From: Planctomycetia bacterium
Lineage (GTDB): Bacteria; Planctomycetota; Phycisphaerae; UBA1845; UTPLA1
DNA: 64,000 nt
Reading direction: 5' to 3'
Assembly: GCA_015200345.1 (NCBI GenBank)
Contig: CP054187.1
Coordinates: 1,348,470-1,412,469, forward strand
A program made the translations under genes and the position numbers. The notes beneath the pieces were generated by a model that did no database searches, was not told where the DNA came from, and saw nothing but the letters and a program-made list of their open reading frames with translations. The stretch's first letter is position 1, and each line of letters opens with the position of its first letter. Shown in pieces: positions 1 through 21,102 of the stretch.

Positions 1-924
1 CGAGATCGACACGGCCAGCCCATCGAGTTCCTCGACCTGGCCCGGCAGTCGCGCGGCGCACCCATGCTCGGCGTGCTCAAAGCCGACGCAGACTCACTCG
101 GCACCGTGGTATCCGCGGCGCTTCGCGACTCCGACGGCGACGGCCTCACCGCCATGCGGAGGCTGAGCCAGTCGCTGGACCGCTTCTTCGCGGAGACGCT
201 CGAAGCCGAAAAGCGGCGCAAGCCGTGGGATCTCATCTACACCGTCTTCTCCGGCGGCGATGACATGCTCGCCGTCGGCCCGTGGGACGTCATGCTCGAC
301 TTCGCCGCTCACATGTGCCAACTCTTTGACCAGCACTTCGGCACCGCAGCGCGCGAACGCCCCTGCTCAATACCGCTGACGATCAGCGCCGGCGCGGCGA
401 TCGTCAAGTCAAGGTATCCCGTCCATCTGGCCGTTCGGCAGGCTGAAGAACTGCTTGAAGAAGCCAAGAGCCACATCGCGCCGCATGCCGCACAGCCCAA
501 GGACCAATGCGCCGCGCTGGGCGGCCTCTGGAAATGGGCCAACCACGATGCCATCATCGGCGCCGGAAAACAACTGGCCGACTGGGTGGATGCGGGCATC
601 ATCCAGCGCGGCTGGCTGCACACGCTGCTGCAACTGGCCCTCCTGCGCCGCGGACAGGCCGGACCCGAATACGCCGACGTACACCCAGCCGTCGGCACCT
701 CGCGACTGGCGTATCACGTCGCCCGGAACTGGCCGGGCAAGCGCAACAATCCCCGCAACGACGGAGATCGCGCGGCCAACGCCGCACGCGACTGGATCGA
801 CGCCGTCCTGCGCGAGTTTGATCAGTTCGATACCACAGCACACGTGCATACGATTCACCTGCCGGCCATCGTGCGATACGCTATGCTCGCCACGCGATCC
901 GGCGGTTCGGAGGACAAGCCATGA
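1..924 (+). CDS. csm1: Csm1/Cas10, C-terminal part (cut by window edge)
   Basis: Large subunit of the type III-A Csm complex. The reading frame is open from the first base and no start is seen, so about 307 residues of a usually 700-900 residue protein are visible. What remains is the second palm (GGDEF-like) domain and the C-terminal helical D4 domain. The visible part begins with a KADADSLG stretch, typical of the strand that opens the cyclase palm, and carries the catalytic GGDD motif at about nt 253-264 (context VFSGGDDMLAV). Intact GGDD predicts synthesis of cyclic oligoadenylates from ATP when target RNA is bound, which would activate the CARF-HEPN protein encoded at 3125. The HD nuclease domain, if present, lies outside the window. 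The stop overlaps the csm2 start by 4 bp (ATGA), indicating translational coupling. An internal ATG at nt 64 is not the real start because homology runs upstream of it. Confidence 0.93.
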   Translation, partial: RDRHGQPIEFLDLARQSRGAPMLGVLKADADSLGTVVSAALRDSDGDGLTAMRRLSQSLDRFFAETLEAEKRRKPWDLIYTVFSGGDDMLAVGPWDVMLDFAAHMCQLFDQHFGTAARERPCSIPLTISAGAAIVKSRYPVHLAVRQAEELLEEAKSHIAPHAAQPKDQCAALGGLWKWANHDAIIGAGKQLADWVDAGIIQRGWLHTLLQLALLRRGQAGPEYADVHPAVGTSRLAYHVARNWPGKRNNPRNDGDRAANAARDWIDAVLREFDQFDTTAHVHTIHLPAIVRYAMLATRSGGSEDKP

Positions 925-1430
925 ATCAATACAACCGTGCCGGTTACGGCGGAGGCGGCCAACAGGGCGGCCGTCAACAGGGGTACGCTGGCGGTCGGGA
1001 TCTACCACGTGATGACAGGGTCACGAATTACTGGCCCGACTACCTCAAGGGCGGCTACTTCGACGACGACGGCTGCCTGAAGATCGAATACGTCAGCCGC
1101 GAAAAAGTCGAGCCGCTCGTGAAGAAAATGGCGAGCCTCACCTCGCACCAGGTTCGCCGCTACTTCGGCCACTGCCGTGCGCTCGAAACCCGTCTGAAAT
1201 CCGGCGGGACCTCCTGGACCGCCGTCTGGCCCGAGGTCAAGAAGCTGGCCATCGCCGCCTCCGACGGTGTTTCCAAGTCTCCTCCGAAGATTCCCACGCT
1301 CTTCCACGACTTCATCCAGCGCAATGTCGACGCGATCAAATCCGAAAAAGACTTTCTGAAGGGATTCCTGCCCCACTTCGAGGCTCTCGTCGGCTTCGGA
1401 CAAGCCCATTTCAAGAAGGAAAGGAGTTGA
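921..1430 (+). CDS. csm2: Csm2, small subunit of type III-A effector
   Basis: A 169-residue protein in the csm2 position. Csm2 forms the inner helical filament of the Csm complex and contacts the crRNA:target duplex. Residues about 30-165 are mainly alpha-helical and hold the family-like region from YWPDYLKGGYFDDDG through HQVRRYFGHCRALE to the C-terminal FLPHFEALVGF segment. The first ~28 residues are an unusual Gly/Gln/Arg/Tyr-rich tail that looks disordered and is longer than the short N-termini of most Csm2 proteins. The start is supported by a GGAGG sequence at about 908-912 and by the 4-bp overlap with csm1. Assignment rests on family pattern and operon position, since Csm2 sequences diverge strongly. 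Confidence 0.85.
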   Translation: MNQYNRAGYGGGGQQGGRQQGYAGGRDLPRDDRVTNYWPDYLKGGYFDDDGCLKIEYVSREKVEPLVKKMASLTSHQVRRYFGHCRALETRLKSGGTSWTAVWPEVKKLAIAASDGVSKSPPKIPTLFHDFIQRNVDAIKSEKDFLKGFLPHFEALVGFGQAHFKKERS

Positions 1431-1434
1431 TGAA

Positions 1435-2148
1435 ATGAAGAAAGTCGACCACTACGTCATCCGCCCCGAGATCGAACTGCTCTCCGGAACACGCATCGGC
1501 GGGTCCGACGACATCCTCCAGATCGGCGGCACCGATCTCACCTGCATCAAAGACCCCGTCACCGGTCGCCCCTATATCCCCGGCTCATCCATCAAAGGCA
1601 AAATGCGCTCCAGCCTGGAGAAGGCCCTCGGCAAGACGACTTACGGACGCGAACCCTGCGGCTGCGCCGACGCCAAGTGCCCCATCTGTCGTGTCTTCGG
1701 CCCGCACAAGCAAACCAACCACCAGCTCGGCCCCACGCGCATCATCCTCCGCGACGCCCCGCTGATCAGCGGCGAATTCGCGATCGAGAACAAGACCGAA
1801 TCCACCAATCGCCGCGACACCGGCGCCGCCGAGCACCCCCGCACCGTCGAACGCGTCGCCCCCGGGGCCAAGTTCGCCCTCGAAATCGGCGTTCAGGTAT
1901 TCGATATCGACGCGCAGTTCAAGTACAAGAACGCCGACGGCAACGAGCTGACCGGCGCCAACGCGTTGCTCGAAGTCGTCGATCACGCCCTTTGGGAAAT
2001 GGAGCAGACCGGCATCGGCGCCGGAACCAGCAAGGGTTACGGCAAGGTCAAGATCCACTGGGACGGCAGCGTCGAGAAGTGCAAACGCACCAGCCGAGCC
2101 AGGAACATTTCCGCCGGTCCCTGCATCACTCCTGGCGCAACCTCATGA
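1435..2148 (+). CDS. csm3: Csm3, RNA-cleaving backbone subunit
   Basis: A 237-residue RAMP (Cas7-like) protein that polymerises along the crRNA and cuts target RNA every 6 nt. Recognised by SGTRIGGSDD near the N-terminus, followed by IGGTD and the RAMP signature YIPGSSIKGKMRS. Asp34 in IGGTD aligns with the catalytic Asp33 of Streptococcus thermophilus Csm3, so target RNA cleavage should be intact. Residues about 74-85 hold four cysteines spaced C-x-C-x4-C-x2-C (EPCGCADAKCPICRVFG), which look like a metal-binding knuckle in the thumb region. The C-terminal glycine-rich motif IGAGTSKGYGKV is also typical. A strong AAGGAG lies 8-13 nt upstream of the ATG. It is 4 bp from csm2 and overlaps csm4 by ATGA. 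Confidence 0.95.
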   Translation: MKKVDHYVIRPEIELLSGTRIGGSDDILQIGGTDLTCIKDPVTGRPYIPGSSIKGKMRSSLEKALGKTTYGREPCGCADAKCPICRVFGPHKQTNHQLGPTRIILRDAPLISGEFAIENKTESTNRRDTGAAEHPRTVERVAPGAKFALEIGVQVFDIDAQFKYKNADGNELTGANALLEVVDHALWEMEQTGIGAGTSKGYGKVKIHWDGSVEKCKRTSRARNISAGPCITPGATS

Positions 2149-3128
2149 AGCTCTACCGCCTCAAACTCTGCCCCCGTTCCCCATGGCGCACGCCTTGGCA
2201 GGCCGACACCCTCATCGGCGCGCTCTGCGCTACCGCCGCCCGCGTCCACGGCGCTGCCTTCCTCCGCCAGCGCCTCATCGAACCCATGCTCGCCGGTTCC
2301 CCGCCGTGCGTCCTCTCCGACGCCTTTCCCGGCGATCTGCTGCCGGTGCCCGTCACCGTGCGCCTGGCCCAACCGCCGCCCGACGCGGACCGCAAGGCCG
2401 TCAAGCGCGGCCGCTGGCTATCTCGTGACGATTTCTTGACACTCCGCGCCGCGACTCCCGACGCCGATGTGCCATGGGATCGCTTCCTGCCCGACTCCGC
2501 CGTCTTCCTCGACGAAACCACCCGCCACAACACGCTCGCCCGCGACTCCGACGCATCCCTCGAAGAAGGCGGCCTCTTCTCCAGACCGGACACGCACCTG
2601 CGCACCGGGCACAACGGCCGAACCGCGCTCACGCTTTACTTCCGCGCCGCGGACGACGCAGCCGCCGACCTCCTCCGCGACCTGCTGCACGAACTTTCAC
2701 TCACCGGCTTCGGTGCAGACGTCGCCACTGGCCGCGGCCAGTTCGAGATCGCCGGAGACCCCGAACCTGCTACCGACCTGGACGCTGCGCCGCAGGACGC
2801 CGACGGTCTGATCGTGCTTTCCACGTTTCAACCGGCCCCCGGCGACCCGACCGACGGCTGCTGGGAGGCCTTCCCCAAGTTCGGCAAGCTCGGCCCCGAC
2901 CTCGGCCTTGCCGACGTCCGCAAGCATACGCTCATCATGTTCCGACCCGGCGCTTGCTTCCGCACCGATCCGGCTCGCCCGTTTCTCGGAAGGGCTCTGC
3001 CGATGGACCTCGTGCTCCCGCAGGCATCTGCGTCCGAACTCCGCGCAAGAAGCATCGAGCTCGTCCATCCGGCATTCGGTTTGGCCGTCCCTGCGAGGCT
3101 GAACCTGGCGGCAGAAATGGAGTCATGA
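2145..3128 (+). CDS. csm4: Csm4, crRNA 5'-handle-binding RAMP subunit
   Basis: A 327-residue RAMP (Cas5-like) protein that caps the Csm complex at the crRNA 5' handle and contacts Csm1. The start is set by ATGA overlap with csm3; the open frame extends further upstream inside csm3, but only from here does the protein look right, opening MKLYRLKLCPRSPWRTPWQADTL with the usual beta strand and TLIGALCA helix. Around residues 180-205 the motif GFGADVATGRGQFEI matches the glycine-rich loop of Csm4. The segment HNTLARDSDAS near residue 130 corresponds to the RN-hx-hD-R region of the family. The stop overlaps the next gene (ATGA). csm5 normally follows here but does not. Confidence 0.88.
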   Translation: MKLYRLKLCPRSPWRTPWQADTLIGALCATAARVHGAAFLRQRLIEPMLAGSPPCVLSDAFPGDLLPVPVTVRLAQPPPDADRKAVKRGRWLSRDDFLTLRAATPDADVPWDRFLPDSAVFLDETTRHNTLARDSDASLEEGGLFSRPDTHLRTGHNGRTALTLYFRAADDAAADLLRDLLHELSLTGFGADVATGRGQFEIAGDPEPATDLDAAPQDADGLIVLSTFQPAPGDPTDGCWEAFPKFGKLGPDLGLADVRKHTLIMFRPGACFRTDPARPFLGRALPMDLVLPQASASELRARSIELVHPAFGLAVPARLNLAAEMES

Positions 3129-4432
3129 CGAAGATGGATCAGGAATCGATGTCACAAACCCTCCTCATCTGCTCCGTCGGCGGTACGCCCGATCCGATTG
3201 TCAAGTCCCTTCTGCACTGGCGACCGGCGCGCGTCATCTTTATCCCCTCCAACCAGACGCGCGCCCATGTCGACGCCGTCCTCCGCGCCTTCGCCGAGGC
3301 CGCTGGCGATCCGCTCAGTCCCGGCCAGTACACCGTCAAACCGGTCCCCGACGCCGAAAACCTCCTCTCCGGCGTCGCAGCCCTCCGCACGCTCGATTCC
3401 GAAGTGGCCGACTGGCTCACCCGCGACGGCGCCGACTTCCGCGTCGTCGTCGACTTCACCGCCGGCACCAAGTGCATGACCGCCACACTCGCCCTCGTCG
3501 CCCGCCGCTGGCCGTGCCAGTTCTCCTACGTCGGCGGCCAGCAGCGCACCAAGGGCGGCGTCGGCGTCGTCGAAACGGGCACCGAGCGCGTCGTCTATTC
3601 TGCCAAACCCTGGGACGCCCTCGGCTACCAGGCCGTCGAAGACGCCGTCACAGTCTTCAATCACGGCGGATACGCCGCCGCCGCTCATCTGCTCGACGGC
3701 GCGGTGAAAAACGCCGGCAAACCGGAGGTCAAGCGCGAGCTGGCCACGCTCAAGGCCGTCATCGACGCCTACGCCGCTTGGGACCGCTTCGCGCATCGGA
3801 AGGCCGAGCATCACTTCGCCGACGCGTTGAAGAACCGCAACGACCTCGCTGCCATTTTCCCTCACGAAGCTTCCGCGCTGTTGACGCGCCTTCAGCAGCA
3901 TCGTGACCGCGTTGCGAAATTGACCGAGCTGAATGAACCGACTGTTGAATGGGTCGTTGACCTCATGGACAACGCCCGCCGCCGCGCCGCCGAGCAACGT
4001 TTCGACGACGCCGTCGCCCGCCTTTACCGCGCCTGCGAAGCCCTCGCCCAGGTCCGACTGCGCGAGAATCATGACATCCCCGACACGAAGGCCGTTTCTC
4101 TGGCACAGTTGCCCGACGTACTCCGTACGGAGTGGGCCAACCGTGGACGCGACAACGGCTGCTTTGCCATCGGATTGCAGGACGCCTACCGACTCCTGAA
4201 GGAGCGCGGCGACGAGCTGGGCCGGAAATTCTTCGAACTCGGGCTGGCCGACGAAGAGTCACCACTCGCCGCCCGCAACCAGTCCATCCTGGCCCACGGC
4301 TTCGAGCCGGTCAACGAGACTGTTTATAAAAAATTGCTCCGGTGCCTGCTCCAAATCGCGCCATTTGACCAGCGCACCGACGCCGACGATTGGCGCTTCC
4401 CCGCCGCTGGCCTGGTTCCGAGGGAAAGCTGA
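3125..4432 (+). CDS. csm6: Csm6-type CARF-HEPN ribonuclease (TIGR02710-like)
   Basis: A 435-residue protein expected to be a cyclic-oligoadenylate-activated RNase. The N-terminal half is a CARF sensor fold: a first strand and loop LLICSVGGTPDPIVKSL (about residues 13-29), and a second conserved loop DFTAGTKCMTATL (about 112-124), which together would bind the signal made by Csm1. The C-terminal half is helical and contains R-x6-H (RNQSILAH, about residues 384-391), the catalytic HEPN motif. This layout matches the TIGR02710 subgroup of Csm6/Csx1 proteins. The start overlaps csm4 by ATGA; a second ATG four codons on is possible. It occupies the place where csm5 would normally sit. The frame is open far upstream inside csm4, but that part is spurious. 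Confidence 0.88.
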   Translation: MTKMDQESMSQTLLICSVGGTPDPIVKSLLHWRPARVIFIPSNQTRAHVDAVLRAFAEAAGDPLSPGQYTVKPVPDAENLLSGVAALRTLDSEVADWLTRDGADFRVVVDFTAGTKCMTATLALVARRWPCQFSYVGGQQRTKGGVGVVETGTERVVYSAKPWDALGYQAVEDAVTVFNHGGYAAAAHLLDGAVKNAGKPEVKRELATLKAVIDAYAAWDRFAHRKAEHHFADALKNRNDLAAIFPHEASALLTRLQQHRDRVAKLTELNEPTVEWVVDLMDNARRRAAEQRFDDAVARLYRACEALAQVRLRENHDIPDTKAVSLAQLPDVLRTEWANRGRDNGCFAIGLQDAYRLLKERGDELGRKFFELGLADEESPLAARNQSILAHGFEPVNETVYKKLLRCLLQIAPFDQRTDADDWRFPAAGLVPRES

Positions 4433-4620
4433 TCGTCATGGAGCGCCTCACGACCACACCATGCCCCCTCGCGACGCCGCTGAATCGCGGCATTCGCCCC
4501 CGTCGTGGCGGGGCCGCGCGTCGTGGGTCCGATCATCTCACCCGCGCCGGTGAGAACTGAAGGCGGCCGCACCGCGCGCCGATCTTTGACAAGTGAATAC
4601 CACTTCCAGGGCTGGTGCAG

Positions 4621-6510
4621 ATGTCCCTACCGGACCAGCGAGCGACATGCGATTCAGCTTCACCCGGCGGCGCGGCGGTGAGTGCCTCCACCGCCCCGCC
4701 GGCCGGGTCGGCTGATTCGCCCCCTCCGCTTTCAAACACCGACGCTGATCTCGGCCTGCCCATCCTCGGCCCCGGCGTCCCGGACCTCATACCCGCGCGG
4801 ATGCTCAACGAGTTCGCGTACTGTCCGCGGCTCTACTACCTTGAGTTCGTCCAGGGACAGTTCGCAGACTCCGCCGACACGATCGAGGGCCGCCTTCGCC
4901 ACAGACGGGCCGATCAGGAATCCGGTGACCTCCCTGTTCCCGAACCCGACGACGCTCGCACGGCGGGCGCGGAACCACTGATCGACGAGTCGGTTCCCGC
5001 CTCTGGTGTCGGCGCCGGCCCCGCCGACCGGGAAATTCACGCCCGGTCCCTCATGATGTCGGCACCGACGCTGGGCCTCATCGCCCGAATCGATGTCATC
5101 GAAGCCCAAGGCCGCCGCGTGACGCCCGTCGACTACAAAAAAGGCGCAGCGCCGGATCACCTCCCGGAACGGGCATGGGAGCCGGATCGCGTCCAGATTT
5201 GTGCGCAGGCCCTGATCCTCCGTGAGAATGGTTTCGACTGCGACGAGGGAGTTATCTATTACGCCGCCGGCAAGACCCGCGTTACGGTTCCCATCACCGA
5301 CGATCTCGTCCGCCGCACTCTCGAGCTGCGCGACCAGGCCCACGCAGTGGCCGCCGTAGGGCAAATCCCGCCGCCGCTGGTGGACAGTCCCAAGTGTCCA
5401 GGTTGCTCGCTCGTCGGCATCTGCCTGCCCGATGAGACCAACGCCCTGCTGGATCAGGAGCGCGGCGCGGCCCGCGAAGTTCGTCGTCTCCTTCCCGCTC
5501 GCATCGAGGCCGCCCCCGTCTATGTTCAAAAACAAGGTGCTTCCGTGGGCAAGTCGGGCGACCAGCTCCGCATTGTCGCCAAAGACGATCCCCCTCGTTC
5601 CATCCGGTTGCTCGACGTCTCGCAGCTCAATCTCATCGGCAACGTCCAGGTCTCCTCCCAGGCTCTCCGAGAACTGGTCGCCCGTGGTATTCCCGTCTGT
5701 TACTTTACCTTCGGCGGCTCGTTCTCGGCCATCACCACCGGCATGCCGCACAAGAACGTCGAGCTGCGTATTCGCCAATACGCGGCCGCCTCGAACGCCG
5801 ACACCTCCCTTGCCTTCGCCAAGGCCATCGTCATCGGAAAAATCCGCAACTGCCGCACCCTCCTGCGGAGGAACTATTCCGACCGCCCGCATCTCGCACT
5901 TCGAGACCTTAACGACCTCCGCAAGCGCGTCCCCGCTGCCGACTCGCTTGACTCTCTGCTGGGCCTCGAAGGCAGCGCCGCTCGAATCTATTTTCAGCAC
6001 TTTGCCGGTATGCTCAAATCCTCTTACGGACCGCCGTTCGCCTTTGACTTCGCCGGCCGCAACCGACGCCCCCCTCGTGACCCCGTCAATGCCCTGCTTT
6101 CCTTCGCCTACGCCCTTCTGGTCAAGGAGCTGACAGCCGCACTGGTCGGTGTCGGCTTCGACCCGTTCCTAGGCCTGTACCACCGGCCCCGCTACGGCCG
6201 TCCTGCCTTGGCCCTGGACCTCGCCGAGGAGTTTCGGCCGATCATCGCTGACAGCGTCGTCATCCAGGTCATTAACACCGGCGAGATCAGGCCGGCCGAT
6301 TTCGTCATCCGCGCCAATGCCGCTGCCCTTCGCCCGGCGGGCCGCCGGGCCTTCCTCGACGCCTATGAACGCCGCCTCGATTCGCTCGTCACCCATCCCA
6401 TGTTCGGATACACGATCAGCTACCGCCGCGTCCTCGAGGTCCAGGCACGCATCCTCGCCGCACACCTCGCAGGTGAGTTGCCCCATTACGTCCCCTTCTG
6501 TACCCGCTAA
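4621..6510 (+). CDS. cas4-cas1: Cas4-Cas1 fusion, spacer-acquisition protein
   Basis: A 629-residue fusion of the two adaptation nucleases. Residues about 60-270 are Cas4: Cys68 (in EFAYCPRLYYLEF) plus Cys259, Cys262 and Cys268 (CPGCSLVGIC) form the 4Fe-4S set; ARIDVIE and PVDYKKG give the RecB-type D...D-x-K active site; QICAQALILRE is the Q motif. Residues from about 290 are Cas1: catalytic Glu in LGLEGSAARIYF, His in LGLYHRPRYG and the acidic residues of LDLAEEFRP. Cas4 trims and orients prespacers and Cas1 integrates them. The first ~55 residues are Pro/Ser/Ala-rich and look disordered. ATG 4621 is preferred because AGGG lies 9 nt upstream; an in-frame GTG at 4615 is possible. A TTGACA at 4586-4591 in the 188-bp gap after csm6 could be part of a separate promoter. 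Such fusions are best known from type I-G (formerly I-U) loci. Confidence 0.95.
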   Translation: MSLPDQRATCDSASPGGAAVSASTAPPAGSADSPPPLSNTDADLGLPILGPGVPDLIPARMLNEFAYCPRLYYLEFVQGQFADSADTIEGRLRHRRADQESGDLPVPEPDDARTAGAEPLIDESVPASGVGAGPADREIHARSLMMSAPTLGLIARIDVIEAQGRRVTPVDYKKGAAPDHLPERAWEPDRVQICAQALILRENGFDCDEGVIYYAAGKTRVTVPITDDLVRRTLELRDQAHAVAAVGQIPPPLVDSPKCPGCSLVGICLPDETNALLDQERGAAREVRRLLPARIEAAPVYVQKQGASVGKSGDQLRIVAKDDPPRSIRLLDVSQLNLIGNVQVSSQALRELVARGIPVCYFTFGGSFSAITTGMPHKNVELRIRQYAAASNADTSLAFAKAIVIGKIRNCRTLLRRNYSDRPHLALRDLNDLRKRVPAADSLDSLLGLEGSAARIYFQHFAGMLKSSYGPPFAFDFAGRNRRPPRDPVNALLSFAYALLVKELTAALVGVGFDPFLGLYHRPRYGRPALALDLAEEFRPIIADSVVIQVINTGEIRPADFVIRANAAALRPAGRRAFLDAYERRLDSLVTHPMFGYTISYRRVLEVQARILAAHLAGELPHYVPFCTR

Positions 6511-6515
6511 ACGCC

Positions 6516-6809
6516 ATGCGCCATCGCTATCTCGTCTGCTATGACATTGCCGACCCCAAGCGACTCAAGGCCGTGTTCAAAAAGGTGCAGGGCTTTGGCG
6601 ACCCCATCCAGTTCTCGGTTTTCAAGTGCGATCTCTCCCGCGCCGAAAAGGCCCTCATGATCGGCGCCCTCACCGAACTTGTGAACACCCGCACCGACCG
6701 CGTCATGATCGTCCGCCTCGGACCTGTTGACGGCCGCTCCGATGATCAGGTAGAATTCCTCGGTAGTCCGTTGATGTCTTGGGAGCGCCAACGCGTCGTG
6801 ATTGTCTGA
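6516..6809 (+). CDS. cas2: Cas2, adaptation-complex subunit
   Basis: A 97-residue protein of normal Cas2 length. It opens MRHRYLVCYDIADPKRLKAV, where YDIAD carries the Asp at the end of the first ferredoxin-fold strand. The rest (GFGDPIQFSVFKCDLSRAEKALM and TDRVMIVRLGP) follows the second and third strand pattern of the family. Cas2 dimers bridge two Cas1 dimers during spacer insertion. It starts 5 nt after the cas4-cas1 stop and is the last gene before the leader and array, all on the same strand. Confidence 0.95.
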   Translation: MRHRYLVCYDIADPKRLKAVFKKVQGFGDPIQFSVFKCDLSRAEKALMIGALTELVNTRTDRVMIVRLGPVDGRSDDQVEFLGSPLMSWERQRVVIV

Positions 6810-7195: not shown

Positions 7196-10100
7196 ATTTC
7201 CACGACCGAAAGGTCGTGGCCCCATTGAAGCCAGATTGATGATGATCGGATCAGCAAAGCCCGCGAATTTCCACGACCGAAAGGTCGTGGCCCCATTGAA
7301 GCGTCTAAATCCGCGCCCAATTCTTCTGGCGTATAGCAGATTTCCACGACCGAAAGGTCGTGGCCCCATTGAAGCCAGACCATCCACGCGGGCAACACCT
7401 TTTCGATAGTATTTCCACGACCGAAAGGTCGTGGCCCCATTGAAGCAATTACTCGCCGGATCAGGCGTTGGCCGAGCGGCAATTTCCACGACCGAAAGGT
7501 CGTGGCCCCATTGAAGCTTCCGGCCAGCCGCGGGGTGTTGAAAGGTTCCCATATTTCCACGACCGAAAGGTCGTGGCCCCATTGAAGCACTTCCGGCGGA
7601 AGATGAGCCGGTAATCGTCGCGAAATTTCCACGACCGAAAGGTCGTGGCCCCATTGAAGCGTCTGAATGCCAATGTTGACAGGATTGCCGGATGAATTTC
7701 CACGACCGAAAGGTCGTGGCCCCATTGAAGCACGCTCCTGCTCTCCAATCCCGGCAACTTCTTCCATATTTCCACGACCGAAAGGTCGTGGCCCCATTGA
7801 AGCAACCAAAACGCTGGCAATCCTTACGCCGGTGTCGATATTTCCACGACCGAAAGGTCGTGGCCCCATTGAAGCACAAAGAGCGCCTGAAGTTTTTGAG
7901 GGTCGAAGTCGGATTTCCACGACCGAAAGGTCGTGGCCCCATTGAAGCGATATACCTATCCGCTTCGCGGCCTCGGTCTGCGTGATTTCCACGACCGAAA
8001 GGTCGTGGCCCCATTGAAGCGCCGCGTAGTTTGCGTTGGCCGAGCCGATCGCTCCGATTTCCACGACCGAAAGGTCGTGGCCCCATTGAAGCGTAAGCGG
8101 AAACAACGGAGTGGGCGAACTGCTCTGGTATTTCCACGACCGAAAGGTCGTGGCCCCATTGAAGCATCATTGCGTTTCCTTTCTATAAATGGCGAGAACT
8201 TAATTTCCACGACCGAAAGGTCGTGGCCCCATTGAAGCGTTCTGCGGGATGGTGGCGATGGCTGAATCGTCCGGGATTTCCACGACCGAAAGGTCGTGGC
8301 CCCATTGAAGCAGCGTTCCGACGTTTCGACTTCTTGACGTTCTTCAATTTCCACGACCGAAAGGTCGTGGCCCCATTGAAGCGTCGCGTCCGGCAGCCAC
8401 CATCGGCTCGCAAACCACATTTCCACGACCGAAAGGTCGTGGCCCCATTGAAGCGCATGTCAACTTTTCGCATACGGGGCAAAAGTCGCCATTTCCACGA
8501 CCGAAAGGTCGTGGCCCCATTGAAGCATAGCGGGCCACGGTTCGGATGGGCGCGCTGGAGTATTTCCACGACCGAAAGGTCGTGGCCCCATTGAAGCACG
8601 ATCAGGTCGCCGCGTGCAAGGGTCTGGTTGTTATTTCCACGACCGAAAGGTCGTGGCCCCATTGAAGCGTACCCCTTGCGATGAGCCTTGCGTGCAGGTT
8701 CAGATTTCCACGACCGAAAGGTCGTGGCCCCATTGAAGCGCATATTCCCGAACGTCGTTGGCGGTGTGAACAATGACATTTCCACGACCGAAAGGTCGTG
8801 GCCCCATTGAAGCCGGCAGTAAGAGGGGCCGTCGTCAAATAGACGCGAATTTCCACGACCGAAAGGTCGTGGCCCCATTGAAGCATTTCTGGAAGCTGTG
8901 GGAAAAAGCCGGAAAGACGATTTCCACGACCGAAAGGTCGTGGCCCCATTGAAGCCAGGTCTCCGGCGAATCACCGCGTAGGCATTATTATTTCCACGAC
9001 CGAAAGGTCGTGGCCCCATTGAAGCCCGCCTTCCTCCTTCTTCTCGATTCCCAGCGCTGACGATTTCCACGACCGAAAGGTCGTGGCCCCATTGAAGCGA
9101 CCCCTACTTCGCCAACTGGGAAGGCGGCAAGCATATTTCCACGACCGAAAGGTCGTGGCCCCATTGAAGCCCTGAAATCGGCTATCGCAGTTCCGACCGC
9201 AGCGCATTTCCACGACCGAAAGGTCGTGGCCCCATTGAAGCCAATCTGCACGCGAAGTAGCCTCTCCACAACGAATGATTTCCACGACCGAAAGGTCGTG
9301 GCCCCATTGAAGCCCGCAAGCTACTTGCCTGCTAGCAGTAGTGTATCCATTTCCACGACCGAAAGGTCGTGGCCCCATTGAAGCAGACATGCTCCCAGAT
9401 GTATCGACAATTATCGAGATATTTCCACGACCGAAAGGTCGTGGCCCCATTGAAGCTTGCCTTCGTCAGGGTCTGGCAGCGCTCGCGCGAACATTTCCAC
9501 GACCGAAAGGTCGTGGCCCCATTGAAGCGGCGTGTTTGCCGCCTTCCCAATTATGGAGGTAGGCATTTCCACGACCGAAAGGTCGTGGCCCCATTGAAGC
9601 TCGCGGCGTCTGTCGCAATCAGCCAGCGCGGATCGGATTTCCACGACCGAAAGGTCGTGGCCCCATTGAAGCCTTCGCGTCATCCACGAGCGCACCGCTG
9701 GCGGTGCATTTCCACGACCGAAAGGTCGTGGCCCCATTGAAGCGTTTCCTCAAGCGCCGACAACACCAAAGTACACACATTTCCACGACCGAAAGGTCGT
9801 GGCCCCATTGAAGCGCTTCTTCCAACGAAATCAAAACGAGACTACAAAAATTTCCACGACCGAAAGGTCGTGGCCCCATTGAAGCGCTAACTTCGTAGGC
9901 AGCAACAAAGCGCTGCCCGAATTTCCACGACCGAAAGGTCGTGGCCCCATTGAAGCGAGACAACCGCAGCGATACGCCCGTCTAATTCAACTGGATTTCC
10001 ACGACCGAAAGGTCGTGGCCCCATTGAAGCACTGGTGAAGTTGCGGCAGACTCCGGCATCTTGCCATTTCCACGACCGAAAGGTCGTGGCCCCATTGAAG

Positions 10101-13100
10101 CGAGAAGTCGGGCCGCGACCGCATGAATCCTCGTTCATTTCCACGACCGAAAGGTCGTGGCCCCATTGAAGCATCCGCTGCGTGGAGGCCCTGGGCGGCG
10201 TGGCAATATTTCCACGACCGAAAGGTCGTGGCCCCATTGAAGCCATAAACGAAGGGGTCCATTTGTGTCTCCATTCTCCCGATTTCCACGACCGAAAGGT
10301 CGTGGCCCCATTGAAGCAAGGCTGGCTGCGTCGCGCCGACCGCTGGAATGAAAATTTCCACGACCGAAAGGTCGTGGCCCCATTGAAGCCTGTCAGAAAC
10401 GTGGCACAACTCATAATCTGTCTCCATTTCCACGACCGAAAGGTCGTGGCCCCATTGAAGCTCGAGGGCCTCGGCCTCCAGCTCGGCGATGCCCGCGATT
10501 TCCACGACCGAAAGGTCGTGGCCCCATTGAAGCACGAAAGCAAGCGTGTCGGCATAGACCGCGTGAATAGATTTCCACGACCGAAAGGTCGTGGCCCCAT
10601 TGAAGCAGCGGAACCCGAACTTCAAACTGCCGGAGCGCGGAGATTTCCACGACCGAAAGGTCGTGGCCCCATTGAAGCTCTTCGCCCGAATCGTCGACAG
10701 TTGTCTGGCCCTTATTTCCACGACCGAAAGGTCGTGGCCCCATTGAAGCGCCAATTGGGCGGGGGGCATCCACGAGCAATTCGCATTTCCACGACCGAAA
10801 GGTCGTGGCCCCATTGAAGCTTTTCCGCGCCGGGCGGATACGGCGGCGGCTCCGGCATTTCCACGACCGAAAGGTCGTGGCCCCATTGAAGCCGAAATGC
10901 CGCCGAATACTGTTCCAGATCAAGACGGATTTCCACGACCGAAAGGTCGTGGCCCCATTGAAGCTCTCGTTGACGCCACGCAGCTGCGCCGGTACGCCGA
11001 TTTCCACGACCGAAAGGTCGTGGCCCCATTGAAGCCGATTCGAGTGTACATAGTTGTCTCCATTCTCTCATTTCCACGACCGAAAGGTCGTGGCCCCATT
11101 GAAGCGTAAGACGGCTGCTCTCGCGCGCGGCGGTATCCTTTATTTCCACGACCGAAAGGTCGTGGCCCCATTGAAGCGCGACGGCACAGCCGCTTGACGC
11201 ACGCAAGCAGGCATTTCCACGACCGAAAGGTCGTGGCCCCATTGAAGCCTGTTCCGAATTGAGCGCGCAGTGGGTAGTTTGGTTATTTCCACGACCGAAA
11301 GGTCGTGGCCCCATTGAAGCGCTGTCATTAACGTGTCACTCATACTCTCATCCTTTATTTCCACGACCGAAAGGTCGTGGCCCCATTGAAGCAGGACATG
11401 CCTCGCGCGAATGAGTTTCAGTACATGAATTTCCACGACCGAAAGGTCGTGGCCCCATTGAAGCGCGGCGAGCCTTCCTTCGCCTCCTCCCGGTTTTCGT
11501 AATTTCCACGACCGAAAGGTCGTGGCCCCATTGAAGCACATCAACCGTGCCCGCGCCTCGGATCGCCTCCGAGATTTCCACGACCGAAAGGTCGTGGCCC
11601 CATTGAAGCGCGTTCGGCGACGGGCCGCCGTTGTGGCAGCGGGCATTTCCACGACCGAAAGGTCGTGGCCCCATTGAAGCTTCCAACCAGCCTACCAATC
11701 GGTAGAGGATGGTTAATTTCCACGACCGAAAGGTCGTGGCCCCATTGAAGCGTCGCCACACCACGCCGCGCGTCTTTTTGTCGGCCATATTTCCACGACC
11801 GAAAGGTCGTGGCCCCATTGAAGCGCGCCAACACTAGTGTGCATACTGTGCGGACGTTTGATTTCCACGACCGAAAGGTCGTGGCCCCATTGAAGCAAAT
11901 TAGCCATTTTTCGATCTCTCCTTTTCTGCTATATTTCCACGACCGAAAGGTCGTGGCCCCATTGAAGCACACTAGACGGTGCAGCACTGTTCGGGGCCTT
12001 GCCCATTTCCACGACCGAAAGGTCGTGGCCCCATTGAAGCGCGCAGCAGGCGCGGGGCCTCGGATTCAGAGATTCCGATTTCCACGACCGAAAGGTCGTG
12101 GCCCCATTGAAGCAACAATTCTTGCAGCTTGCGGGCAAACATCTGCCTCATTTCCACGACCGAAAGGTCGTGGCCCCATTGAAGCGGCCTGGACCGACAC
12201 ATGGGGAACCGGCCTGACGTAATTTCCACGACCGAAAGGTCGTGGCCCCATTGAAGCAGGAAAAGCCCGTTCGCGCCGGGTGGCGGCGGTGGATTTCCAC
12301 GACCGAAAGGTCGTGGCCCCATTGAAGCCGCTGCTTTGTTTTTGCTTGCCGCGGCGGCGCTGGATTTCCACGACCGAAAGGTCGTGGCCCCATTGAAGCC
12401 GGCGAGCATGGCGTCCGACGGCGGGGGGGCAACGATTTCCACGACCGAAAGGTCGTGGCCCCATTGAAGCTGGGCCGTCGTCCTCGAGGCGAAAACTTTC
12501 CACCGCATTTCCACGACCGAAAGGTCGTGGCCCCATTGAAGCAGTTCGACCGGCAACTTGGCATCCTCCATAGCCAGATTTCCACGACCGAAAGGTCGTG
12601 GCCCCATTGAAGCTCCATTTGTCTCTCTCTCTTTCTCCCGCAAGCGCGGGAATTTCCACGACCGAAAGGTCGTGGCCCCATTGAAGCGAGGCCATCTGCC
12701 CGCGCTTCGTTCAGGCGCGTTGATTTCCACGACCGAAAGGTCGTGGCCCCATTGAAGCACACTAGAAGGCGCTGCTGATTCGAGCGCTTTACCCCATTTC
12801 CACGACCGAAAGGTCGTGGCCCCATTGAAGCCCGCTTGCCGCCAGCTCAGCGATCTCCGAGATTCGCTATTTCCACGACCGAAAGGTCGTGGCCCCATTG
12901 AAGCCAGAGCCAGCAAAACAAGCGAACACACCGCCTTCAATTTCCACGACCGAAAGGTCGTGGCCCCATTGAAGCTGGACGCACCGTGCGAGCCGTGCAT
13001 CCGCGCGTGCCATTTCCACGACCGAAAGGTCGTGGCCCCATTGAAGCGGTGCTCATCCTGGCGATGCTGCGGATTTTGGATTTATTTCCACGACCGAAAG

Positions 13101-16100
13101 GTCGTGGCCCCATTGAAGCGGCGACGACCCAGAGCCGCCCCGGTGGTCAGCGTGGTATTTCCACGACCGAAAGGTCGTGGCCCCATTGAAGCTCGTGGAC
13201 TTCAAAACGCAAGGCGCGGAAAACGACATTTCCACGACCGAAAGGTCGTGGCCCCATTGAAGCGGCTTGAATCCGTCGGCCAGACCGCGGATACGGTCTG
13301 ATTTCCACGACCGAAAGGTCGTGGCCCCATTGAAGCGGTTAACTCGCCACCCTCATCCAAATCGGAAGCCTCATTTCCACGACCGAAAGGTCGTGGCCCC
13401 ATTGAAGCACATTTTGTCTACCCTTTCCTTGTGCCGCGTTCACGATTTCCACGACCGAAAGGTCGTGGCCCCATTGAAGCTCGACCGCGCGTCCGCGGCC
13501 ATCAGCGCGGGCATCGCCATTTCCACGACCGAAAGGTCGTGGCCCCATTGAAGCGCACCGGCGCGACGCACAACTGGGAGCGGTTGCTGATTTCCACGAC
13601 CGAAAGGTCGTGGCCCCATTGAAGCCTACTCACGCACGACGGCCCAGGCGAACGCCCTGCGATTTCCACGACCGAAAGGTCGTGGCCCCATTGAAGCCTG
13701 CCAGCTTCTTGGCAGTCAGCGTCACCACGTCAAATTTCCACGACCGAAAGGTCGTGGCCCCATTGAAGCCCAACTGCGTGCGGCGTCCTCGTCGGACCAT
13801 ATATATTTCCACGACCGAAAGGTCGTGGCCCCATTGAAGCCAGCAGCGCCAGCGTGCCCGTGCCGTTCCACAGCAATTTCCACGACCGAAAGGTCGTGGC
13901 CCCATTGAAGCACCGGCTGGTTCACAGCGAACCGAACGCGGACATGAAATTTCCACGACCGAAAGGTCGTGGCCCCATTGAAGCTTTTACGTTACGAGAA
14001 AAGGGGGCTGGAAGGGCTAATTTCCACGACCGAAAGGTCGTGGCCCCATTGAAGCGGAAGCGAAGGCGCGCCGCTGTCAGCGCTCTACGCCGATTTCCAC
14101 GACCGAAAGGTCGTGGCCCCATTGAAGCTTCTTGCTGGAAGTAGTATTGCCTTCGTCAGGCAATTTCCACGACCGAAAGGTCGTGGCCCCATTGAAGCGC
14201 TAACGAATTGGCCGCGCTAGGCGGAGACGCCGAAATTTCCACGACCGAAAGGTCGTGGCCCCATTGAAGCGACCCCTACTTCGCCAACTGGGAAGGCGGG
14301 CGTCACGATTTCCACGACCGAAAGGTCGTGGCCCCATTGAAGCCATCAACACCCCACGTCCGGTACATAGCGTGAGTTGGATTTCCACGACCGAAAGGTC
14401 GTGGCCCCATTGAAGCTACGTTTTTATCGCATGCCCAACAACTTACAGTCGCATTTCCACGACCGAAAGGTCGTGGCCCCATTGAAGCATTAGGCGCCTT
14501 ACTCCACAGACTAAGGCCGTGGTATTTCCACGACCGAAAGGTCGTGGCCCCATTGAAGCCACAATTGGGCGGGGGGCGAGCACGCTCAATTCGCATTTCC
14601 ACGACCGAAAGGTCGTGGCCCCATTGAAGCTTTGGTTTCCACGTCGCAGATTCGCCGGTACGCGGCAATTTCCACGACCGAAAGGTCGTGGCCCCATTGA
14701 AGCTGAAAAATATGACCATACAGCAAGCGTGCCACAAGATTTCCACGACCGAAAGGTCGTGGCCCCATTGAAGCTCCCGCACAAGCGCGGGCCGTTGGGC
14801 GTGCCGTGAATTTCCACGACCGAAAGGTCGTGGCCCCATTGAAGCCGTTCGGACTGCTCCACGAAGGCATGGCCGGCCAGATTTCCACGACCGAAAGGTC
14901 GTGGCCCCATTGAAGCGAGGAGGCAAAGCTTCCTCCAAAACTGGATAAGCAGGATTTCCACGACCGAAAGGTCGTGGCCCCATTGAAGCATTTAGCGCGT
15001 CGACCAAGGCGTCTAGTGTCCACGCATTTCCACGACCGAAAGGTCGTGGCCCCATTGAAGCCGATCCCGGCGCCGGACGTCATGCTCGCCGGTATGCCCA
15101 TTTCCACGACCGAAAGGTCGTGGCCCCATTGAAGCCACTAGCTGCAGGCCCAAAAGCCGAAGTCAGCACCAATTTCCACGACCGAAAGGTCGTGGCCCCA
15201 TTGAAGCAAGCCGGTCGCGCGCATGCAACTAAATCCACGCTCTGATTTCCACGACCGAAAGGTCGTGGCCCCATTGAAGCTTCTTTAGAGGGCGTTTTGC
15301 CTTCGCGCCGCGCTCATTTCCACGACCGAAAGGTCGTGGCCCCATTGAAGCTCGTCGGCTTCGCGCTCAAGGTCGGCGATGCCGGCATTTCCACGACCGA
15401 AAGGTCGTGGCCCCATTGAAGCAAAACAACCGCCATCTGCGGCGAAATCTTCTCTTCATTTCCACGACCGAAAGGTCGTGGCCCCATTGAAGCTCCAGCT
15501 TTGGCGGCAATTCCACCTCCTGCTGCGCTATTTCCACGACCGAAAGGTCGTGGCCCCATTGAAGCTAACGCCAACGGGGGTGCCCCACCCGGACGATGCC
15601 GAATTTCCACGACCGAAAGGTCGTGGCCCCATTGAAGCTTGGCGATTTCCAGCGCGATCTCCTGTGTCACCAGATTTCCACGACCGAAAGGTCGTGGCCC
15701 CATTGAAGCGGATCGGCGGACCGGCGGCTCGGACCGGCGGCTCGGACATTTCCACGACCGAAAGGTCGTGGCCCCATTGAAGCAAAACGAACGGGTCCAT
15801 ATTCTCAATCCTTTCCGATTTCCACGACCGAAAGGTCGTGGCCCCATTGAAGCGTCCAGCCGCTCAGCCGACAGGCCGTACCAGCCGTGGAATTTCCACG
15901 ACCGAAAGGTCGTGGCCCCATTGAAGCCGCGCGTGCCGTGTTCGCGGCTCGCGCGTTTGGCTTAATTTCCACGACCGAAAGGTCGTGGCCCCATTGAAGC
16001 CACTTGAACATGCGGACCGAGTCGGCGGTGCGCTATTTCCACGACCGAAAGGTCGTGGCCCCATTGAAGCGCCGCGCTCCAGCGCCGCTTCGGCGGCCCA

Positions 16101-19100
16101 TCGCCATTTCCACGACCGAAAGGTCGTGGCCCCATTGAAGCTAAGACAAAGGGCTTAATGACGGTGGCCTCTCATGATTTCCACGACCGAAAGGTCGTGG
16201 CCCCATTGAAGCGCCGATGCGGCGATCGAAGGTGTGCGTGCGCTTGTATTTCCACGACCGAAAGGTCGTGGCCCCATTGAAGCGCAGACCATCGCGAGCC
16301 TGCCGCGGTTCGTGTTCCGATTTCCACGACCGAAAGGTCGTGGCCCCATTGAAGCGGGGGCGGCGCGAAGATCACGGGCGGGACGTATACGAATTTCCAC
16401 GACCGAAAGGTCGTGGCCCCATTGAAGCTATATATTCTATGCTATATTACATACATACACACGGATTTCCACGACCGAAAGGTCGTGGCCCCATTGAAGC
16501 ACCCCATGCGCTCAATCCATGGTTAGTCCATCCGCGGATTTCCACGACCGAAAGGTCGTGGCCCCATTGAAGCCTTCGATCCGGAGGTTTCGCCCTCGGC
16601 CACCGCGCCGAATTTCCACGACCGAAAGGTCGTGGCCCCATTGAAGCCATATCTTGTCTCCGTTTCTCTCGCACAAGCGCGAGCATTTCCACGACCGAAA
16701 GGTCGTGGCCCCATTGAAGCCATGCTCCGTGCTCACTTTCTCCGAGAACTCTCGAATTTCCACGACCGAAAGGTCGTGGCCCCATTGAAGCGCGGACCTG
16801 CGAGACTTCGGCGTGGCGGCATACGTATTTCCACGACCGAAAGGTCGTGGCCCCATTGAAGCCTAGTGTGTGGATTAATACGCATACCTTTTAACTCATT
16901 TCCACGACCGAAAGGTCGTGGCCCCATTGAAGCCAAGACATCTGTGTTCGTGCTGGGACAAGATATGACAATTTCCACGACCGAAAGGTCGTGGCCCCAT
17001 TGAAGCGCGAACAACTCCACCACCGCGGGCACGCGCTGATAGATTTCCACGACCGAAAGGTCGTGGCCCCATTGAAGCTGTCAAGTGTCGTGATTCCGCG
17101 CGCCCGCTGCATACATTTCCACGACCGAAAGGTCGTGGCCCCATTGAAGCCTCTCGCAAGCGCGAGCCGTCAGGCGCGCTCGAGCGATTTCCACGACCGA
17201 AAGGTCGTGGCCCCATTGAAGCGATTTCAGCGCGAGACAGCAGGCTCGGCTCCGCCTCATTTCCACGACCGAAAGGTCGTGGCCCCATTGAAGCTTTTTC
17301 GCCGTCCGGTCCGCCGCAGCGCGCCGGTGATTTCCACGACCGAAAGGTCGTGGCCCCATTGAAGCGATTGCCACAAATGGCGACATTGCTAGCTGGTTGG
17401 GATTTCACGACCGAAAGGTCGTGGCCCCATTGAAGCGACAGCATATTTTGACATTTGTAGTCTCCATTTCTCATTTCCACGACCGAAAGGTCGTGGCCCC
17501 ATTGAAGCGCGTGCGTGGCCGCCGAGCCGACCGAATGCGATGGACATTTCCACGACCGAAAGGTCGTGGCCCCATTGAAGCAGTTCCAGCACGCGGCCGG
17601 CTCCGTCCAGCAGCGTCGGCATTTCCACGACCGAAAGGTCGTGGCCCCATTGAAGCGGCGGGCAGGACATTTGGTTCGGCGGCCAGAAGAACCATTTCCA
17701 CGACCGAAAGGTCGTGGCCCCATTGAAGCGCCTGCACTGTCGCCGGGTCGGTGATTCGCCGCCGGATTTCCACGACCGAAAGGTCGTGGCCCCATTGAAG
17801 CGAGAAAACGAACGGATCCATCTCTGTCTCCCTTTCCATTTCCACGACCGAAAGGTCGTGGCCCCATTGAAGCTTGGCGTCCGGTTCGTGATTTGCGCGA
17901 ACCACGAAATTTCCACGACCGAAAGGTCGTGGCCCCATTGAAGCCCGTCAACGTGTCACTCACAACGGCGGCGATTTGCCGGATTTCCACGACCGAAAGG
18001 TCGTGGCCCCATTGAAGCGAGACCGCCCTTTGCGAGATTCACAAAGGTTTCAGATATTTCCACGACCGAAAGGTCGTGGCCCCATTGAAGCAAGCCGGTA
18101 ATGGTCACACTGGTGCCGGTTCCGTTATTTCCACGACCGAAAGGTCGTGGCCCCATTGAAGCACACGGCGCGTGGCGTGGTGTACATTTTCTACAGCATT
18201 TCCACGACCGAAAGGTCGTGGCCCCATTGAAGCTACGCCTCATTGACGCGATTTACCAGCTCCGGCGTATTTCCACGACCGAAAGGTCGTGGCCCCATTG
18301 AAGCTTCATCCAGAGAACTTCGCTGCGAAGGGTTTTTGATTTCCACGACCGAAAGGTCGTGGCCCCATTGAAGCTGCTCGAACCACGAGCACTTGGGCCT
18401 GTCGCAGACATTTCCACGACCGAAAGGTCGTGGCCCCATTGAAGCACCGCTGCCGATGACAAAGAAGCACGGGCCAAAATATTTCCACGACCGAAAGGTC
18501 GTGGCCCCATTGAAGCAGCAGCGCCGACGGATGTCGATTTATGAAGCCTGCATTTCCACGACCGAAAGGTCGTGGCCCCATTGAAGCCGATCCTTATGCG
18601 TCTGCCTGTTTTGTGGCCGAACATTTCCACGACCGAAAGGTCGTGGCCCCATTGAAGCCGTTCCCGTTCAAGCCAGTGCCCATATCAGAAATCATTTCCA
18701 CGACCGAAAGGTCGTGGCCCCATTGAAGCTCCGAACCACGAGTATATACGTCGGTCTGGAAACGCATTTCCACGACCGAAAGGTCGTGGCCCCATTGAAG
18801 CGGGGCAACTGGCGATACGTTCATGCTCGAGACATCCCCATTTCCACGACCGAAAGGTCGTGGCCCCATTGAAGCCGATGTAGGTGCAGCGCCGCAGGCG
18901 CAGCCAGGCCGATTTCCACGACCGAAAGGTCGTGGCCCCATTGAAGCCTCCCGCTCAAGCGCGGGCCGTCAGGCGTGCCGCTATTTCCACGACCGAAAGG
19001 TCGTGGCCCCATTGAAGCCTCAAGTGAGGAAGTGACCAGTGTGCACACCGTTTATTTCCACGACCGAAAGGTCGTGGCCCCATTGAAGCTAGTCTGTCTG

Positions 19101-21102
19101 TCGGCGGCGACTTTTTCGTCGCCAGCATTTCCACGACCGAAAGGTCGTGGCCCCATTGAAGCTACCGCGCTGCGAGATCAGCGGCGGTGCCGTTGATATT
19201 TCCACGACCGAAAGGTCGTGGCCCCATTGAAGCTTCAATAGCAAGGTTGATTGGACCGTTAGGTAATATTTCCACGACCGAAAGGTCGTGGCCCCATTGA
19301 AGCAAGCGCGGCGGACAGGCGAATGAGCATGTGCCATGCATTTCCACGACCGAAAGGTCGTGGCCCCATTGAAGCTGCATCGGGTCAACGGGGCAGGGTG
19401 GGGGTTTCATATTTCCACGACCGAAAGGTCGTGGCCCCATTGAAGCTCGATCTGATGCCTCCAGAGTGGCTGGCGGTTTGCATATTTCCACGACCGAAAG
19501 GTCGTGGCCCCATTGAAGCTCCGCGGCTTCGGCTTCCAGGTCGGCGATGCCCGCGATTTCCACGACCGAAAGGTCGTGGCCCCATTGAAGCGCACGCCCT
19601 CCGGTTCGCGCTCGCACTAGCCCGCCTATTTCCACGACCGAAAGGTCGTGGCCCCATTGAAGCCATCCGATATCCCGACGCCATGACCGCCTCGCCGCCA
19701 TTTCCACGACCGAAAGGTCGTGGCCCCATTGAAGCCGTCAATTTTCCCAGAGCTTGCGTCTTTTGCAGGCCATTTCCACGACCGAAAGGTCGTGGCCCCA
19801 TTGAAGCTGCTATCTGCTCTGTCCCGCAGGCGGCGAGGCCCGCATTTCCACGACCGAAAGGTCGTGGCCCCATTGAAGCGCTGTGCGCCGGTGTTCTGCG
19901 TATGCTTGCGCATAATTTCCACGACCGAAAGGTCGTGGCCCCATTGAAGCATATCCGAACCAACCGTATGGACGACGGCCTGGAAACGATTTCCACGACC
20001 GAAAGGTCGTGGCCCCATTGAAGCCGCATAACCCGATCCTGCTCAGCCAAACCGGCGCGATTTCCACGACCGAAAGGTCGTGGCCCCATTGAAGCTCAAT
20101 GTACGCCGACAAATCAGGGTCCGCATTGCGATTTCCACGACCGAAAGGTCGTGGCCCCATTGAAGCCAGCCCGGGCGGCACCAGAGTGAGAAGTTTCGCG
20201 CGAATTTCCACGACCGAAAGGTCGTGGCCCCATTGAAGCGTCCATCGCTCGAGCGTGTCATCCGCCTGACACGGGAATTTCCACGACCGAAAGGTCGTGG
20301 CCCCATTGAAGCGACGGGCCTGGCACGTATGAGATACCCTGCCTTAATTTCCACGACCGAAAGGTCGTGGCCCCATTGAAGCGCCGTCCTGGTGCGCGCC
20401 CCGGTCCGCCGATCCGGTCATTTCCACGACCGAAAGGTCGTGGCCCCATTGAAGCGCCAACTCCGGCGTCAAAGAGCTAGCCGAGAGTGCGATTTCCACG
20501 ACCGAAAGGTCGTGGCCCCATTGAAGCGTGCAAATGACGAAGCGGACTCCAAACGAGGGGTCAATTTCCACGACCGAAAGGTCGTGGCCCCATTGAAGCT
20601 CCCGCTTGCAAGCGCGGGCCGTCAGGCGTGACACGAAATTTCCACGACCGAAAGGTCGTGGCCCCATTGAAGCCGGAGGATATGCCCGCCCGCGTCCACC
20701 GCGGCGAGATTTCCACGACCGAAAGGTCGTGGCCCCATTGAAGCTCTAAAAGACAAAGTGAATAGTGACCAATGGTACGATTTCCACGACCGAAAGGTCG
20801 TGGCCCCATTGAAGCACGATCTGCGCGAACGCCGAGCACCTCGGACTGTCGCATTTCCACGACCGAAAGGTCGTGGCCCCATTGAAGCCGGCAGATCACG
20901 AAGCGCACGCCGAAAGAAGGGTTGATTTCCACGACCGAAAGGTCGTGGCCCCATTGAAGCGAGGTTGAGGATGGCGAAATGGTCTGGGGGAAGTGATTTC
21001 CACGACCGAAAGGTCGTGGCCCCATTGAAGCGCCGTCCTCGTCGATAAGCGAGTCGCGTCGCTGAAATTTCCACGACCGAAAGGTCGTGGCCCCATTGAA
21101 GC
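7196..21102 (+). CRISPR. CRISPR array, 194 repeats of 36 bp and 193 spacers
   Basis: Counting by hand gives 194 repeats at a mean spacing near 71.9 bp, with spacers of 34-39 bp. The repeat starts ATTTCCACGACC and ends CCCCATTGAAGC. Its centre is a perfect 8-bp stem, CCACGACC with GGTCGTGG, closed by a GAAA tetraloop, giving a strong hairpin for crRNA processing. The terminal ATTGAAGC would be the 8-nt crRNA 5' handle used by type III systems, so the array is read on the + strand like the cas genes. Every copy, including the leader-distal one at 21067, appears identical, except the copy at 17402 which lacks one C. Because repeat and typical spacer are both about 36 bp, long false reading frames run through the array on both strands; none is a gene. 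Many spacers are related to one another (see findings). Confidence 0.99.
17402..17436 (+). repeat. Variant CRISPR repeat (number 143), one C deleted
   Basis: This copy reads ATTTCACGACC instead of ATTTCCACGACC and is 35 bp. The deletion removes the outer C:G pair of the hairpin, leaving seven pairs and the GAAA loop. The handle end is intact. It is the only departure from the consensus I found. Confidence 0.93.

Follow-up and report, generated by a model that had tools for sequence, protein, structure and literature searches.

Antisense bias of start-like spacers in the array of a composite type I-G/III-A CRISPR locus of a planctomycete

The 64,000-nt stretch of the Planctomycetia bacterium genome analysed here (contig CP054187.1; hereafter the window) carries a large array of clustered regularly interspaced short palindromic repeats (CRISPR) next to genes of two effector types, and we report on the strand of those spacers that resemble translation starts. 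The genes lying before the array in the window are given in Table 1. The 13.5 kb of genome to the left of the window (L010) were fetched for the upstream genes, and the proteins Cas3g, Cas8g (Csx17), Cas7g (Csb1) and Cas5-6g (Csb2) encoded there (L010:3812-11769) match PADLOC models with E-values of 2.8e-40 to 4e-255, forming a complete type I-G effector operon upstream of cas10. The gene order is cas3g-cas8g-cas7g-cas56g-cas10-csm2-csm3-csm4-csx1-cas4/1-cas2-array, all in one operon-like run with the III-A module between csb2 and cas4/1. The locus is therefore a composite of types I-G and III-A, with a single adaptation module (Cas4g-Cas1g, Cas2g) and a single I-G-type array, and not a plain type III system. 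An initial annotation made from the window alone had assumed a type III-only setting, which does not hold, given that the adaptation genes are Cas4g-Cas1g and Cas2g and that a full I-G DNA-targeting effector stands just upstream; owing to this effector, most spacers need not target RNA.

The Cas10 protein has an intact GGDD palm, begins at its first palm (SGIQDFLF) and lacks the N-terminal HD domain. Csm3 scores above its NCBIfam cut-off, and Csm2 and the truncated Cas10 below theirs. From cas10 through cas2, no open reading frame (ORF) was identified as csm5 or as a stand-alone cas6, the Cas6-like domain of this locus being carried by Csb2, and the locus has no cas1 besides the Cas4g-Cas1g fusion. 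A Cas10 palm search returned a single Cas10 in the genome, and the repeat matches listed for the genome all fall inside this array. The same synteny is found in an uncultured Dehalococcoidia genome, and it is largely or partly kept in a further Planctomycetota genome and in two Acidobacteriota-group genomes. The Cas10s of the composite loci have no HD motif, unlike two from ordinary III-A loci that the same query retrieved. Further composite loci were sought via Csm4 (331, 392, 366 and 363 genomes), and the extra loci obtained had either no I-G array or a very small one.

The repeat of the array (ATTTCCACGACCGAAAGGTCGTGGCCCCATTGAAGC) follows a consensus common to Cas4g-Cas1g loci of many phyla and is laid out as a hairpin, 4 nt and an 8-nt handle (AUUGAAGC), which corresponds to the way in which Csb2, the Cas6-like protein of type I-G, cleaves (PMC9638904). 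Because the repeat folds in this way, the strand of the CRISPR RNA (crRNA) is the + strand; the leader side of the array faces cas2. Among the 194 repeats, 193 are identical and one, at 17401-17436, differs at its 5' end (GATTTCACGACC...). Spacer 119 (15710-15747) is itself a short tandem repeat (ACCGGCGGCTCGG).

The initial annotation had singled out twelve spacers that, read as reverse complement, contain GGAG, AAGG or GAGAG 5-10 nt before an ATG. Its spacer numbering and coordinates agree with our extraction of the 193 spacers, and the same motif, applied mechanically to both strands, returns exactly these twelve on the reverse complement (Table 1) and two spacers, 114 and 125, on the forward (sense) strand. 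Three further definitions were compared with the expectation from dinucleotide shuffles, the counts including chance matches in each case. The antisense:sense ratio in the window was 11:1 for a strict 5-mer Shine-Dalgarno (SD) sequence before ATG (shuffles 2.9:1.4), 14:2 for a purine tract before ATG (shuffles 8.2:5.7) and 16:5 for a looser 4-mer SD-ATG, where the excess is only moderate (shuffles about 7.2-7.5:4.5-4.8). In the loose motifs, where chance matches dominate, start-containing spacers as a whole do not look enriched; an enrichment of the antisense class shows with the strict motif. The phage gene length of about 1 kb on which the annotation had based its own expectation is too long, three annotated high-GC phages having a gene every ~0.5-0.6 kb.

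Table 1. Genes, array and start- or hairpin-matching spacers of the window
Feature	Position	Strand	Remarks
cas10, C-terminal part	1..924	+	gene start upstream, L010:11763; 543 aa
csm2	921..1430	+	profile match
csm3, backbone RNase subunit	1435..2148	+	profile match
csm4	2145..3128	+	profile match
csx1-type CARF-HEPN protein	3150..4432	+	start approximate
cas4g-cas1g fusion	4615..6510	+	NF049935, 768.8 bits vs cut-off 560; PDLC01747
cas2g	6516..6809	+	PDLC01756 Cas2g, 6e-27
CRISPR array	7196..21102	+	194 I-G-type repeats of 36 nt, 193 spacers (34-39 nt)
spacer 14	8166..8202	-	AAGG, 7 nt, ATG
spacer 43	10244..10281	-	GGAGACACAAATGGACCC; same gene as 120, 148
spacer 45	10390..10425	-	GGAGACAGATTATG
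spacer 54	11036..11069	-	GGAGACAACTATG
spacer 58	11321..11356	-	AAAGGATGAGAGTATG; same gene as 150
spacer 66	11897..11932	-	GGAGAGATCGAAAAATG
spacer 76	12614..12651	-	hairpin arm, then GAGAGAGAGACAAATG
spacer 87	13409..13444	-	AAGGAAAGGGTAGACAAAATG
spacer 106	14775..14809	-	hairpin element as in 76 and 132; inferred PAM TTC
spacer 120	15784..15817	-	AAAGGATTGAGAATATG
spacer 132	16648..16684	-	hairpin, then GGAGACAAGATATG
spacer 139	17151..17186	-	hairpin element; inferred PAM TTT from spacer 76, TCC/TCT from other pairs
spacer 143	17437..17472	-	GGAGACTACAAATG
spacer 148	17802..17837	-	GGAGACAGAGATG
spacer 164	18948..18982	-	hairpin element; inferred PAM TTT
spacer 187	20600..20637	-	hairpin element
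PAM, protospacer adjacent motif

Comparison arrays were taken from 80 Cas4g-Cas1g loci fetched by protein and from 40 more regions in genomes of the window's own phylum. Those called I-G-only have no type III genes in the stretch fetched, a definition that leaves the rest of their genomes outside. The I-G-only arrays (1,686 distinct spacers) give 37:36 with the strict motif, and 74:70 with the purine-tract motif, against strict ratios of 11:1 in the window and 14:1 in the Dehalococcoidia array. This second array (OY282441.1), completed to 259 spacers, belongs to an independent composite locus of another phylum, itself among the loci fetched, with the same gene run, and it constitutes a test of a hypothesis fixed in advance by the initial annotation; its ratios with the 4-mer and purine-tract motifs are 22:5 and 30:6. 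Fisher tests of the pooled composite arrays versus the I-G-only arrays return p-values of 7e-5 (strict), 4e-4 (4-mer) and 3e-5 (purine tract), and strict antisense matches make up 5.7% and 5.4% of spacers in the composite arrays versus 2.2% in the I-G-only arrays (~2.5 times). When 30 arrays are ranked by p-value, the composite arrays come first and second with the strict and purine-tract motifs, and the Dehalococcoidia array first and the window sixth with the 4-mer motif; by rate difference, they hold ranks 2-3 with the strict and with the purine-tract motif. We take the strand bias of start-like spacers to be probably real and likely linked to the III-A module. The selection on RNA-targeting spacers suggested by the initial annotation, which had taken in only the type III genes, fits the recurrence of the bias in a second Csm-bearing locus and its lack in I-G-only arrays.

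The share of antisense spacers was estimated from coding signal with a Markov model of period 3, for which host genes served as the training set and which reached 73% accuracy on held-out 36-mers. No array-wide antisense bias was found with this model: over all spacers, the antisense fraction was 0.45 (0.31-0.60) for the window, and the Dehalococcoidia array gave 0.52 (0.40-0.65). On this estimate, the strand bias would lie at the start-like sites.

Many spacers of the window form families that match the same place in the same gene of related phages, often in the same register and on both strands (27, 33, 50, 99, 103; 149, 156, 186, 190, 191; 46, 114, 172; 161, 178; 53, 104), which from the sequences appears to be repeated sampling of one phage group. 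Similarly, a hairpin element (TCCCGCnnAAGCGCGGGCCGTCAGGCGTG), placed before the ribosome-binding site in the target phages, is matched six times in one orientation, by spacers 76 and 132 and by spacers 106, 139, 164 and 187, the last four without reaching the ATG.

Searches for the targets themselves returned little. The array had only two matches, at chance level, among 50,697 phage genomes; pattern scans of IMG/VR gave chance matches or none, and a 21-aa peptide read from overlapping spacers had no match. Against 114 genomes of the order, the array yielded one convincing protospacer, that of spacer 147 (34/36), in a congener (G001 C1:3417657-3417692; L049:19658-19693). It is antisense to an ORF that adjoins, on a by-eye reading, ParB-like and transposase-like ORFs, and its flank is ATT, not TTN.

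The bias might come from phage redundancy and chance, if a single phage family, its leaders all of the pattern hairpin-GGAGAC-ATG, had been sampled repeatedly, the antisense strand being dominant by luck and the second locus adding a weaker coincidence on a purine-rich background. Indeed, spacers 43, 120 and 148 are homologous, as are 58 and 150 (the latter among the weaker cases of the initial annotation), which belong to another single gene, and the leader GGAGAC is common to 6 of the 12 start spacers (43, 45, 54, 132, 143, 148). The 4-mer count of 16:5 lies only about 3 standard deviations over the shuffles on the antisense side, and in the Dehalococcoidia array, whose shuffle-corrected p is 0.004-0.03, some start matches (126, 146, 165) resemble one repetitive gene. 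However, a strict ratio of 23:2 remains in the composite pool once 43, 120 and 148 are collapsed (Fisher p 2e-4), the strict ratios of the two arrays are the top two of 30 by p-value, the Dehalococcoidia start spacers are diverse, and the gene-body spacers of the window lie on both strands. We consider this explanation rather unlikely.

The main mechanistic rival is a bias of acquisition, in which the adaptation complex would take up DNA that transcription near gene starts leaves single-stranded or folded into hairpins, with the orientation fixed at that step, as described for a Streptococcus III-A system. Such a bias near start codons has been reported for III-A, with a strand-biased enrichment of spacers at structured 5' regions and 10-50 bp past the start codon (reviewed in PMC9048733), and the six window spacers that cover one hairpin leader element would fit it. 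On the contrary, the same Cas4g-Cas1g family produces no bias in the I-G-only loci, and the review describes a bias towards the encoding strand, maybe the opposite orientation. Spacers of the composite arrays also show no more structure than those of I-G-only arrays (mean z -0.15 and -0.21 versus -0.19), and a general preference for hairpins or secondary structure was discarded, structure being equal across classes. An acquisition bias is accordingly judged improbable.

A requirement for the I-G protospacer adjacent motif (PAM), TTN (PMC9638904), on the crRNA strand would mean that the mRNA must carry AA next to the end of the protospacer; early codons, being rich in A, provide this, and antisense start spacers would so be favoured. 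TTN does stand beside 5 of 18 recipients in the window (0.9 expected), as deduced from homologous spacers that overlap. However, in phage DNA with a GC content of 50% or more, 36-mers flanked by TTN carry the strict motif at only 2.42% antisense versus 1.92% sense, hence about 1.26:1 and not 25:2; the I-G-only arrays, presumably with the same PAM, are unbiased, and the single protospacer found has an ATT flank. This leaves the PAM largely refuted as sole cause and very improbable. Base composition was likewise rejected, as dinucleotide shuffles do not reproduce the bias.

The reading that we prefer, tentatively and with a chance somewhat short of even, is selection of those crRNAs with which a Csm complex devoid of HD can reach ribosome-free mRNA starts. 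A complete I-G DNA-targeting effector is coupled to a III-A (Csm) module in one operon-like run, and both effectors probably draw their crRNAs from one array filled by the PAM-selecting Cas4g-Cas1g/Cas2g, as the presence of one array and one adaptation module suggests. For the DNA arm, any PAM-flanked spacer would serve on either strand, giving gene-body spacers on both strands, and DNA cutting would be left to Cas3g. The RNA arm would work only with crRNAs antisense to mRNA and, having no HD DNase, would depend on RNA cleavage, on cyclic-oligoadenylate signalling via the CARF-HEPN protein Csx1, or on plain occlusion; RNA cleavage and cyclic-oligoadenylate signalling belong to the known biochemistry of these families. 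If the accessible part of phage mRNA is the ribosome-free translation start site, antisense start spacers would give added protection and be kept, whereas sense ones would gain nothing from the RNA arm. Ribosome-free accessibility and translation block, the latter put forward by the initial annotation, are candidate reasons for a bias at starts rather than inside genes. What we infer, beyond the counts themselves, is that both effectors use the same crRNAs, that selection acted on them, and that it did so through one of these two. Type III strand bias has been found to arise by selection (PMC7515739), and type I spacers lean to RNA-compatible strands in hosts with type III systems, for which selection is proposed (PMC8482600).

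Several points weigh against selection at mRNA starts. The window is the discovery set, which renders its own p-values optimistic, and by itself it gives a shuffle-corrected p of 0.015-0.16; the Dehalococcoidia array reaches only the 0.004-0.03 given above. Replication rests on this single array, since the third one of composite type (48 spacers, Pyrinomonas) is uninformative, with SD-ATG 0:0 and purine motif 1:0. With the 4-mer motif, the composite arrays rank 5 and 7 (window 7th) of 30 by rate difference, behind small arrays. Spacers 43, 120 and 148 come from one gene (ATGGAYCCSTTCG...) in related phages and are not independent, and the ATGs in the spacers are putative gene starts, as the searches returned no phage that matches. 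If Csm were the selecting agent, an antisense excess would be expected within genes too, yet the array-wide estimate shows none, and, with frames read by eye from synonymous differences, gene-body family members 27, 99, 50, 103, 149, 156 and 190 are sense, and 33, 186, 191, 46, 114 and 172 are antisense.

Multi-effector compatible type I/III arrays (Vink et al., 2021, PMC8482600) resemble the present one in that a single array, filled by a PAM-selecting type I adaptation, is usable by a type III effector. Their RNA-compatible strand preference with type III extends over whole ORFs (55-65%), whereas at the present locus it lies at start-like sites and is not seen across genes; the passages of that study covered here list type I subtypes without I-G, and the genes here all form one operon-like run. 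With type I-G systems (Csb1/Csb2/Csx17/Cas3g, Cas4-Cas1 fusion), the locus shares the gene set, the 36-nt repeat and its hairpin, 4 nt and 8-nt handle, and differs by the III-A module between csb2 and cas4/1. With type III-A (Csm) systems, it shares Cas10 with GGDD, Csm2, Csm3, Csm4 and a CARF-HEPN protein, but no csm5 was found in the run, cas6 and cas1 do not occur as separate genes, and its Cas10 is without HD. In Thermus type III systems, transcript-complementary spacers are favoured by selection during infection and not by acquisition (PMC7515739); the position bias there is to early genes and not to start codons, and neither 'start codon' nor 'ribosome' occurs in that text.

The composite I-G/III-A operon with an HD-less Cas10, found in three bacterial groups, is a naturally occurring case of labour split between a DNA-cutting and an RNA-sensing effector. 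That such loci constitute a distinct mode of RNA silencing, in which Csm would act mainly against phage translation initiation regions, with the preference imprinted in the spacers and the I-G arm using the rest, is a broader proposal that we regard as unlikely. If the start-site preference is true, it would show which part of phage mRNA the Csm complex can reach, and the accessibility of target sites for RNA-targeting CRISPR systems would become testable from natural spacer records.

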